In this document: piece after piece, positions 46,425-52,511 of the stretch
How positions within the stretch are numbered: position 1 is the stretch's first letter
Layout of the letters: each line of letters begins with the position of its first letter
DNA from: Sistotremastrum niveocremeum HHB9708
Taxonomy: Eukaryota > Basidiomycota > Agaricomycetes > Sistotremastrales > Sistotremastraceae
Direction of reading: 5' to 3'
Assembly (NCBI GenBank): GCA_001630475.1
Contig: KV419416.1
Location: forward strand, 196,477-260,476
Length of the DNA stretch: 64,000 nucleotides
Notes under the pieces: model-generated
Seen by the model: the letters and a program-made list of their open reading frames with translations, nothing else
What the model was told of the DNA's origin: nothing
The model's database searches: none
Translations under genes and position numbers: made by a program

Positions 46425-47715
46425 ATGGTCACTACGAGAGCTCAAAGCACGGTGTCTCCTAAGAAATTTTCTGGCGCATTGCGGTCCGGCAAGTCCGCTA
46501 AACCTAGGGTTAGCCTCGGCTTGTACGCTCATAATCCCAGATCTTCGACCGGTGAGCACCATGATTCTTGTCTCTCCCCGACGCTCTGTCTGACTCTGTG
46601 GCCCCGGCTAAGATGCTGTCAAGTCTGAGCGAGAAAGTCTATCCCCTCCCCTTCGCACTCCCTCGCCACCCCCACTCGTCTTCAAGATACCGGCGAAGAC
46701 CGCTGCAGTCATCGCCGTACACGGACCCTTTCGATCTGCCGAGATCATCGAGCAAAATCATGTCAAAGAGCTCTTCGAGCATGAAGACAACAACGACTAC
46801 GAAGCTATCATCGACTTGATCTTCCCCGAAACAGGTCACTCTGGCAATAAAAATCCACTTCATGTCAGACGACCTCCCAACTGCTTCATCGTAGCTCGAT
46901 CCGGCTTCACTTATATCTACAAGACGAATAATCTCCTACCTCAGCTCGAGAAGAATTTCCAGCTATCCGGGCAATATCTCAGCAGCTTGGGCGGCTGGTC
47001 CTGGCAAGAAGTCAAGCATCGCCGGAAGTACTGGGGAACGGGGGATCATCTCGGTCGTCTGTACCAGCTCTTCGTCAATCTGAGCCTCTACCTGAAAGAG
47101 CGGCATGCTCGTATTCATCCAGAGTACAAGTATAAGCCTCAGAGGAAACAGAACGACGGGAAGAAGAAAAGGGCCCCGAAACGCAAAGACACCGCCCGCC
47201 GCATCCTCAAGCACGAGGAGATCATCCCCATCCCCGACGTCAAACCCCCCATCTCACCTTCCCTACCCACTCTCGTGTCATCCGAGCACGTTGAAGACGC
47301 ATACATTGCCAAGTTCGACGAGTTTGACGACTTCATGCCTCTACCCTCCCAAGGCGATGAAGAAATGTCGGTCTCTCCAGATTATTCGCCTTCCGAGGGA
47401 ATGGACGTCGACCTACCCCAGCTTCCCGACTTCATCATCGACGTCGAGGATTACCTCTCCTCAGCCAATTCCAGTGGCCTCAGCACCCCTACTTCCTCGC
47501 CTTCTCTCGCCCATGTCGCTCTTCGGGGCATAGCCACTGCTCTCCCAGACGTGGATGCTATCGGCTTCGAGGAGGCAGACGATGACATGGATGTCTTCTT
47601 CGACTTTCCCCGTTACGAGACTGATTCCGGTCTTCAGCACTCGCGATTCGGCCAAACCGATAAATCTTGCCACGAAGGAGCCGCCGCTCTCATCCGACAA
47701 GTTTCCCCTTACTAG
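46425..47715 (+). CDS. HMG-box (MATA/Sox-like) DNA-binding protein
   Basis: Probable nuclear transcription factor. Exon 1 starts at 46425 (MVTTRAQSTVSPKKFSGALR). An intron (about 46551-46613, GTGAGCACC...GGCTAAG) leads to TDAVKSERESLSPPLRTPSP and a single long exon. An acidic stretch (ELFEHEDNNDYEAIIDLIFP) precedes the box. The box begins RRPPNCFIVARSGF, continues with LSGQYLSSLGGWSWQEVKHR, and closes with LYLKERHARIHPEYKYKPQR, the standard start and end of fungal HMG boxes. Basic sequence KKKRAPKRKDTARR follows. The tail is acidic and Ser/Pro-rich (YIAKFDEFDDFMPLPSQGDE), as in activation domains. The box is longer than normal: helix 1 to 2 by roughly 7 residues and the helix 2-3 region by about 12. 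That suggests either true insertions or a missed short intron. The family includes mating and stress regulators. No mating-locus neighbours are present. Confidence 0.8.
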
Positions 47716-48764
47716 TGACTTCAAACAATGCTATCTTCAAAATGTTGACAAATGATCGTGAGTATACTTATAGACCATGGCGTCCACTTACTTACTGCTG
47801 TCTATCAGAAAACAAATATTTCTCTCATCTTCCTCCGGTCTTCCAACAATTCATTTCTCAGTCCTGAAAATAATCGAAGAAATCACATTCAAAATGTATC
47901 AATTTTCTCATAATCAAGTCTACTGTATCGTCGTTCCAAATGTACCAAGGCGCCGAAGGGGGAAATTCTTTATGAAGTGATCTCATAATCAGCCACTACA
48001 ATCTGAAGGTCAAACCCCATTCTCGTGTAATAAAAGTAGTGTATGTACGAGTGAATCCGCTGTAAAATTTCGCCAACCCCGTAATATTCACAAGTCCAAG
48101 CACAAGTCTCAGCCCTACGGATGAATTAGTTGTCCAAGCTGCGCACAAAGACGTGGACAAACTTTAAAACTCGACCTCGCTTTCGTTGAGCTTGCACGCC
48201 TATCGCGTCCTCGTAGCATACTCCCAGCTTCACCGGCATTCTTGCGGGCGATGGTCTCACACGGACCCACAAAGATTGCGGCGCTTTGTCATGAGGCCAA
48301 TAGCTTCAAGACCGATGAATATGGCAACTCCGGTCAATTCATTAGGCCATCGGAGTGCGGAGAATTAGTTGTCACAACCTGTCTTTTTGGGAAGCGTATG
48401 ACAGAGAACAATAGCACAATCCCGATTTTTTGGCGCCCGATCTGTAATGGCAGATCTGGCCGTTGCCTCCGAGAACTTTTTGGTGCTTGGCCCTTCCAGC
48501 TGTCGTAGCAAACGCTAAGATTCAAGACATGACCATTCCAAAACATTTCATGACGCCTTCTGTGATCCTGCCAACGCACTTTCCACAAACGGCGATGATC
48601 ATCAGAATCAGGAAATTCCTCGAATAAATATCACTGTTCCGAATTCATTACAAGAAAGTCCTCTCAACAGCGCCGGGACGGTTACATATATTCAGTATTC
48701 TCAGTTTCGCCATATTCAGTGCTTCACGGGGTCCTATTATCGAACGTCAAAAAATGTAAGGACA
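47716..48764. other. Convergent intergenic region, no gene seen
   Basis: Lies between the HMG-box gene and the 3' end of the minus-strand pseudokinase gene. Plus-strand frames of 60-88 codons have no motif. AT-rich from about 47800 to 48020. Confidence 0.45.
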
Positions 48765-51700
48765 TCAATGAAAAGCTGACCAACCTAGTATTACAGCTGT
48801 ACAGTGCCATAAGTCGTCAGTCTGCGGGACGTGAATGTCAGTCCCTGTCTCGGAACAGAGCGATTCAATAGTTTCTTCCTCCAGCGAAGCCAGTCTGGTT
48901 CGATTGTTCTCCGGAACAGTCAAGAATCCAAGATGCGAGGCCGCCGCTACAGAAGCATTGATGAGCTGATCAATAGCTCGCAGATCACTTTCGACGGGGC
49001 CTGTTAATCTCCAGACACAAACACCCTCGCCGGGCTCTTCGACGTTTCGTCTAATTTGCCAGAGCGTACCGTTGGGATCCCAAACGTCTGAGTCTAGTGG
49101 CATAGGACGAGTTGGGACGAAAGGTATATCGGTGCCCGCTTGGGCCTCGATTGTGATACCGAGACGTAAGGTTTCTTGTCGGATCGCCCTGAGGACGAAT
49201 TTCTGATTCTTGCGGAGGAAACGATGCCACCTCTCGAAGATTGGCGCGCCGACCTAAACACAATGAGAGATTGTAGGAACTGTTGATTGAATATTACATA
49301 CCTCTTCTGTGGTGGCAGGTATCTGACCGAATTGAGAAAAGAGTCCTCGTTTAGCCTCCAACAAGCCTCCGCTAGGCCCACGAATAGTCATCTTCATATT
49401 TTCATGCAGCTCGAAATTAACGTTGAAATTGTTTCCGAGTGCATTCAACCATCCGGTTCCGCGTCTGAGGAGGTGAGTATGCAGACCTCGAGGTTGATCC
49501 GTCTCTATCGTGTTCTCGAAGCGGCTTTGATATTCAATCAACTGTTGCGGAAGATTAGAGCTGAGACCAATAGAATATTCCAGTAAAGATACCTTTCTGA
49601 ACTCTGCTGCGGCAGGTATGACATCCGCACGAGGTCCGACGATCTTTACAGAGATATCCATTTCGCCTTCGGAGCCGATAGAGAACGTTTCCGTGAACTC
49701 TATTTGAATGGAATAATGTGCTTTGAGCCGTTCCGCTGCACTCCTGGACGGAGCCAGGAATTCGACTCCTCGGATGCTTGGGAGGTTGATGTGGTCGGTC
49801 ATAGTAGTCGCCTACCAGTACAGTCAGAGACCATGAGGAAATGGACAGGACGAGACACTGACCATACGACCGACTCGCTCTCGAATCTCATGGATGACGT
49901 TATTCACGTGTCTCTCAGGCCCACTTATCTATAAGAGATTTAGTTGAAGAAGCGATCGTCAAGAACGTGCACTCACCTTCCATAAGCAGGGGCGATTAGG
50001 TTCCACAGAAGAATTGGCAAAGAAAGTCTCGATAGTAACGCCGTATTCTTCCTCCAGGCTCGCTTTGCCTCCGTCAGCAGGACCTGCGATACTCTGTGCA
50101 TGTTCCTCTTCAAGTCGAATTTCCTCGGTAATTCTCTGCCAACGACTCGACGCCGGACTTTGAAGGCCTAAGGGATTATTTCGAGGGGAACGCCAGGGCG
50201 GCATATCTTGAGCGGGGCTTCGCCGACCGCCTATGACCTTGGAGAAGTTAGAAAAAGGAACAAATGAAATAAGGACACCCGAACCTCGTTCAAGGCGATT
50301 GCTGGAGAGTGCGGCCGCGATCCACTTGGTCGAGGAGATAAAGGTCTCTGCGATGCCATTGGGGATAAAGGCAAAGGCATTCTCTGCGGTGACATCCCAT
50401 ATTGGCGACTGGTAGGAGTAGCAGCTCTAGGAGGATAAACTCCAAAATCAGGCATCGGAACAGGTGAAGTTGGGCGATTTACGAATCGCGAAGGGGATGA
50501 ACTACGCGGGTTGACATCTGGACTGTCGGGAGGCGGGTGGGGGTGGAACTTCCATTGGGATGCAAGATGGTCTAGAGTATATGACATATCTGTGATGCTG
50601 GGTCTTGAATCCATGTCAAGCGCCCAACACTGTTCGAGTAAGTTCCACAGCGGCTCAGTCAATCCGCGCTTTCGGTATGTCCAAGTTGAAGGACGCGTAG
50701 GGGTTTTGCCTTGCAATAGATCCATAGTGACTGTTTCATGAAGAATCGATTCCATGAATGGATGACTGCCTGTGAGAAGCTCGAGGATGCACATCGAGAA
50801 TTGCCAGATATCGCTGGCCCGAGAAGGACGCTCTTCGGTGTCAGGAGTAGTCAGTTCCGGGGCCAGCCATCTTACGAAGCCACTCCGGGTATTTGTTACG
50901 GTTGTGTTGGACATTTCGCTCCGTATGTGCGATACACTGAACCCTGTAAGTAACGCTTGTCCCTTGTCGTTTATCACGATGTTTTCCTGCGGGTCAATCA
51001 ATCAGAGACATTCGAGGATGAGAGAAGCCAGAAACTTACACAGCGAATGTTTTGATGGAGAATCGGGTTTTCTCTGTTATGAAGATAGCCTAGTGCGCTT
51101 GCAATTTGAGCGACCTAAGATCCACAAAATTGATTCACCATAGATCTAAAGAGATTGAAGTACTCACCAGCGCAGTCCTATTCACCATAGGTCGATCCGC
51201 AACGAAATCCAGAACCATGCCATTAACCATCCAAGGGGAAACGATTCCGACTTGAGGAGCGTATTGCCGAGTAATTCCAATGAACTCCACAATATGGGAA
51301 TGTTTGAGATATCGGGTAAGGAAGACTTCATGGTAGAAGCGCTGAAAACAACGTTCTGAGTTCCATTGTGTTCGGATGCTTAGGAACCAAAAACGGCTAA
51401 GTGACGTACTCGCAGGACGTCGTGCTCTTCTTCCGGCACTTCACTGCGCGGTATCTTCAGAGCAAGAGCTCTGCCTTGTCTATCAGCTCCCCATATATCA
51501 GCGAAACGTCCGGACAGAATGGGCTTTGAGGATCGATCGTCGATGGAGGGTACCTCAAAATCGCTAGGCAGCGACTTCGTTGTGATTGACAGTTCGTACG
51601 CCGCTGCAAGAGCCGTTTCGCGGATTCGATCAGACGCAGGTCTTGAATCAACCACCTGGGCATGGCTGAGTGAGAAGGATGAGTATGGAGGTGCAGACAA

Positions 51701-52511
51701 AGCATGCCTTGACGAGTTGGTTCAGGAAGAGGTTCGCTTGTTCACCCTCAAGTTTCATAGCTTTGTCACGATATTCGTGTCGCGTCAGAACACGTTCTAG
51801 TAGATCATCAAGGTCCTTCTTGTCCTTTGGTTCGTCGTTGCTCGCTCTCCTGGTGAGCTCGTCCATCACAGAACTATGTTTCTGTACATATAATGAGCAT
51901 CAGATGTTTCTAGAAGAAGTAGATGGAGAACGTACGGCGATGCCTAATTCCTCCGCTTGTCCCATGAGACCGTTCATCTCGCTCAGAATATTATCCTGCA
52001 TGGCTAAACTCCCTACCACGCCCAGATCGACCCATTCTCGAGCTTTGTGATGGACGTTGCGTATCAATCTATAGTCGATAAACAATGATCATCAGCGAGG
52101 TCCGGTGGTACAGCACATCGGAGACATACAGATCTACACGTCGAACCCACGAGTCCCAACGTTGTTCATGTCCATCGAGAGATACCAGCGTCTTCAATAA
52201 CCACTGACAACACGCATGTATCCTCTTAAATGTCCTCTAATACTCACATCATCATTAGATCACCCTTTCACATAACGAACAATGCATAATGCACTCACAC
52301 GATGGACGAACATCTTAGACGCTAATGTTCCGATTTCATTCATCAGTTGATTGAGCGGCAGGGTGCTCAGTGATTTATCATCTTCGTAAGGTTCACCCCC
52401 GAGATATGGTGCGATGCTTGGGATCAAGCTTAGATTGCCGTATGTGAGAGCAAGTGTTTCCGGTGAGGTGGGCGCAGGGGGAGGTGCATAAAGAGCTCCA
52501 TAGCTGGACAT
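48765..52511 (-). CDS. Pseudokinase (TKL-like) fused to KH-like RNA-binding repeats
   Basis: Large multi-exon gene starting at 52511 (MSSYGALYAPPPAPTSPETL). N-terminal helices (EIGTLASKMFVHR, WLLKTLVSLDGHEQRWDSWV, HHKAREWVDLGVVGSLAMQD) precede a TKL-type kinase fold. The glycine loop is PILSGRFADIWGA and the lysine is in ALALKIPRS. The catalytic loop reads ILHQNIRCENIVIN where HRD/HGDLKxxN is expected, so the Asp is lost and the Asn kept. The DFG motif reads TGF in QALLTGFSVS. The C-lobe is intact (RWLAPE, ASDIWQFSMCILELLTG, SRPSITDM). Loss of both Asp residues marks a pseudokinase. A Pro/Ser linker (SPVPMPDFGVYPPRAATPTS) leads, across a 47-base intron at about 50233-50280, into repeats resembling vigilin-type KH domains: GGKASLEEEYGVTIETFF, ISGPERHVNNVIHEIRERVG, SVKIVGPRADVIPAAAEF, MKMTIRGPSGGLLEAKRG and VWRLTGPVESDLRAIDQLI. 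If that intron is wrong there are two genes. Confidence 0.78.

Follow-up and report, generated by a model that had tools for sequence, protein, structure and literature searches.

What kind of protein would join a kinase domain that lacks its catalytic aspartates to a series of KH repeats that lack their loop GxxG motifs, and is it the product of one gene? The question is raised by a 64,000-nucleotide window of contig KV419416.1 from Sistotremastrum niveocremeum HHB9708 (all coordinates below follow the numbering of the window), on whose minus strand a hand-made splice model, 52511..48648, joins 14 exons, rechecked against the window, into 1043 amino acids with 0 internal stops. By its motifs the predicted protein is a TKL-type pseudokinase, followed by five degenerate KH repeats that sequence similarity relates to the C-terminal repeats of vigilin/Scp160. 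We hold this anatomy and the descent of the repeats from vigilin to be highly probable, and the kinase and the repeats to be very likely one gene; taken loosely together with the docking function proposed below, the whole picture stands at about even odds. An initial annotation of the locus had described dead kinase motifs followed by KH-like repeats, an observation confirmed here by motif reading, Pfam and similarity to vigilin; its pseudokinase and its vigilin-kind KH repeats stand, but it had stopped short of the final exon and of a fifth repeat, and had overlooked the loss of GxxG and a second kinase-KH gene in the same genome.

The kinase domain matches Pfam PF07714 at 1.2e-28 (profile positions 7-255 of 258) and PF00069 at 1.8e-25, and its best relative in the PDB is TNNI3K (3.8e-21), with B-Raf, KSR2 and MLK-type kinases lower in the list, matches by which it is assigned to the protein kinase superfamily as a TKL-type member. 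Its features, the last three read from the model translation, the TNNI3K alignment and a comparison with kinases of this genome, are:

50552..51538, minus strand: TKL-type kinase domain, amino acids 238-508, without the catalytic Asp and without the DFG Asp (Pfam, PDB)
51049..51057, minus strand: HQN instead of HRD
50939..50947, minus strand: TGF instead of DFG
51455..51457, minus strand: Lys265, the retained VAIK lysine (here LALK)

The catalytic loop LHQNIRCEN without Asp, the TGF at the DFG position and the intact ATP-site lysine were thus all read correctly at the outset, as was the retained C-lobe, in which we recognize what we take from familiar kinase motifs to be the APE Glu, the alphaF Asp and the RP Arg; the presumed alphaC Glu (FYHEVFL) is likewise retained. 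The catalytic-loop Asn is present, and the Gly-rich loop reads SGRFAD. Twenty other kinase loci of the genome, chosen from genome matches, read from exon fragments and forming a subset of more than 150 kinase exon matches, carry the HxD Asp in 19 cases (in L052 this position is a gap) and the DFG Asp in all 20, so that the double loss is particular to the window gene among the kinases examined. A tree of 22 kinases places the window kinase inside a 10-row set of the genome's HGD/HRD-type kinases (support 97/94), and several further kinases of the set share, as fragment borders, the exon borders of its kinase part.

The KH repeats are divided as follows:

49863..50141, minus strand: KHa, amino acids 630-706, no GxxG
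49593..49811, minus strand: KHb, amino acids 707-779, a single exon, with APSR at the GxxG loop position and a GSEG string elsewhere
49302..49541, minus strand: KHc, amino acids 780-859, a single exon, with a GPSG string away from the loop position
48942..49253, minus strand: KHd, amino acids 860-963, with a long loop also present in vigilin's penultimate KH
48648..48941, minus strand: KHe, amino acids 964-1043, completed by the last exon

Against Pfam KH_1 (cut-off 21.5 bits) the model protein scores 25 bits and its C-terminal 415 amino acids 29.6 bits in two stretches; none of the five repeats passes singly (KHe 20.8 bits, KHa 14.7, no match for KHb, KHc or KHd). Stronger evidence for KH domains comes from the similarity to vigilin. 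The same genome, the sole eukaryotic one among the collections searched in our sequence comparisons, holds a separate vigilin-like multi-KH gene (on C2), and direct similarity to this gene now underpins a KH assignment that had initially been made by inference. The five repeats run colinear with those at the C-terminus of vigilin, with which they have two introns in common; KHd and KHe match vigilin's last two repeats specifically, and the similarity of KHa to KHc is weaker. Alignments read by eye place GxxG at the loop position in none of the five, whereas vigilin repeats n and n-2 retain it. A KH profile built from this genome gave a weak result, and AlphaFold models made without an alignment were of low confidence (mean predicted local distance difference test, pLDDT, 43.6 and 39.0).

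The single-gene model requires that these two halves be joined by splicing across a linker. Its remaining parts are:

52511-52299, 52203-52130, 52068-51936, 51881-51708, 51655-51410, minus strand: exons 1-5 of the hand splice model
51341-51168, 51114-51040, 50986-50285, 50237-49977, 49928-49863, minus strand: exons 6-10
49811-49593, 49541-49302, 49253-48785, 48733-48648, minus strand: exons 11-14
51539..52511, minus strand: N-terminal region, amino acids 1-237, with nothing over the cut-off in Pfam (only SpecificRecomb, 16 bits against a cut-off of 24.6)
50142..50551, minus strand: Pro/Ser-rich linker, amino acids 509-629, split in the model by intron 50284-50238

Twelve of the 13 modelled introns are GT-AG, and the donor between exons 4 and 5 is either a GC at 51707 or, alternatively, a GT at 51713. 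The last exon encodes the final GPREALNMAKLRIL, the end of a KH repeat; the gene end previously set at 48765 falls inside intron 48784-48734, the end in our model being 48648, and the former count of four or more KH-like segments becomes five, the fifth of which needs this exon. Intron 49592-49542 is 51 nucleotides long, in frame and free of stops, and its excision restores KH spacing; retention would make the KHb-KHc junction 17 residues longer. The placement of the linker intron is uncertain, as 35 GT-AG candidates, 38-139 bases long, leave an open frame running from exon 8 through exon 9, and all of them join the two halves by construction; ours was picked by its length and a CTAAC branch-like site, and its donor, GTTCGG, is weak. 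That weak donor, together with an in-frame ATG in exon 9, speaks for two adjacent genes, the first a kinase gene that stops at 50233 and the second a KH gene whose start codon, Met609 (50204), lies in the linker. We judge this very unlikely, since Pro/Ser-rich sequence runs on across the intron, the gap from stop to ATG is 26 bases only, and the second kinase-KH gene of the genome, a paralogue that supports the single-gene model, carries kinase and KH repeats in one unbroken exon.

This second gene (C8:806940-810067; L026:2441-5568), hereafter the C8 gene, likewise encodes a TKL kinase followed by KH-like repeats, about five when divided by eye, with kinship to the C-terminus of vigilin. Unlike the window gene, it has intact HRD and DFG motifs, a GRNG in its first KH and almost no linker, and there is no BLAST match in the N-terminus. 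By single-exon E-value it is the best other match in the genome to the window kinase, whereas six other fetched loci outrank it in summed tblastn score. Direct homology of the two KH blocks was not found on comparison, the tree of 22 kinases gives no resolution for a clade of the two kinases, and the shared kinase exon borders do not single out the C8 gene, because they recur across several set members. When three KH blocks were searched by tblastn against 22 fetched loci, only the C8 locus and the vigilin-like gene gave matches with E no higher than 0.01; further kinase-KH genes may exist, as the 20 kinase loci searched represent only some of the more than 150 kinase exon matches. Two of the other kinases have extensions of their own. 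At L041/L054 (C26:414173 onward) a TKL kinase is extended by a lengthy Pro/Ser-rich tail resembling the window linker, with KH matches no better than 0.19, and at L052:1826-2545 (C4) a TKL kinase frame continues into a patatin-like beginning (PF01734 at 0.0014; 19.3 bits, where the cut-off is 27.7), perhaps another kinase fusion.

A tail related to vigilin but without loop GxxG, on a kinase without catalytic aspartates, leads us to propose a docking scaffold, to which we assign a probability of roughly 0.3. The protein would be catalytically dead; its vigilin-type tail would place it at the docking site of the vigilin C-terminus, on the ribosome or RACK1; and there its pseudokinase would pair with or compete against an active kinase, for example the C8 product, much as KSR, likewise TKL, regulates RAF. 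In yeast, Asc1/RACK1, a protein of the 40S subunit, is reported to be contacted by the Scp160 C-terminus, and a passage in PMC8783092 makes polysome association dependent on Asc1.

Loss of GxxG at the loop in all five repeats is what makes protein docking a serious alternative to RNA binding, and it weakens the plain view of an RNA-bound signalling scaffold, whose repeats would retain mRNA binding and so recruit the pseudokinase to the message, the more so as vigilin repeats n and n-2 keep the motif. We nonetheless rate that explanation nearly as likely as docking: the repeats are kin to those of vigilin, the most C-terminal KH of vigilin binds RNA according to a passage in PMC8783092, and for human HDLBP a passage in PMC9117268 states that the five KHs at the C-terminus bind RNA, with reduced affinity. 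The former passage led us to lower the probability of a docking role from 0.35 and to raise that of RNA binding. A dominant-negative decoy that occupies the vigilin or C8 kinase docking site and blocks them, with no need of a partner kinase, would suit a gene that, of the two with this layout, has the dead kinase and that has a tail type in common with vigilin, but the window and C8 tails have diverged beyond direct recognition, which leaves a common site unassured; we regard this account as improbable.

Decay offers another explanation of the same losses, as both the catalytic and the GxxG motifs would be expected to go in a gene whose two halves were drifting in the absence of selection; an open frame of 1043 codons across 14 exons, and a kinase that keeps structural residues while losing catalytic ones, make it rather remote. 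We give still less credence to a kinase that remains active through an unusual mechanism: some kinases that have lost motifs are active, and the VAIK lysine, alphaC Glu and catalytic-loop Asn are in place here, but the HRD and DFG aspartates are both missing and the Gly-rich loop is SGRFAD.

Returning to the docking scaffold, we offer more tentatively the idea of a small fungal family of TKL kinases with a vigilin ribosome-docking tail, in which the live C8 product and the dead, GxxG-free window protein would act at the ribosome as a pair in the manner of KSR and RAF; our literature searches turned up no description of such a translation-coupled signalling module. Upstream of the window gene, on the plus strand from 52781 onward, lies a DEAD-box helicase gene (PF00270, 3.9e-46; nearest solved chain DDX47), whose ATG is 270 bases from the kinase-KH ATG, so that the two are divergently transcribed from a common start region; this would fit an RNA-related expression programme and proves nothing. 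Elsewhere on the plus strand, 46612-47715 is an open frame of 367 amino acids with an HMG-box-like stretch by eye, which nothing in Pfam matches with E of 0.01 or below.

The functions of the mushroom TKL expansion are, to our knowledge, mostly unknown, and a vigilin-kin C-terminal block carried by a dead and an apparently live kinase in one genome is a natural construct for identifying the block's docking partner and for learning whether mushroom TKL kinases signal at the ribosome, one that would also assign a partner to one or more of the kinases in that expansion. Among known systems, KSR1/2 resemble the window kinase in their TKL-type fold and degraded catalytic motifs, KSR2 being among its PDB matches; KSR has no KH tail and works with RAF and MEK. 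Vigilin/Scp160, described in passages of PMC8783092 and PMC6492140 as large, conserved, and RNA- and polysome-associated, shares with the window gene the colinear C-terminal repeats and two introns, and is built throughout of about 14 tandem KH domains, where the window protein has five behind a kinase domain. The initial annotation knew of no described kinase-KH protein of this layout, and none is named in the titles and abstract openings found in the open-access literature, a scope outside which most subscription journals lie. The expanded TKL kinases of mushrooms, reported in a passage of PMC2838846 for Laccaria and represented by the FslK lineage, whose members mostly retain catalytic residues and have additional domains in only 16 of 241 according to a passage in PMC3937382, are a further comparison for the window kinase, which falls in the genome's 10-row HGD/HRD-type set but has dispensed with its catalytic aspartates.
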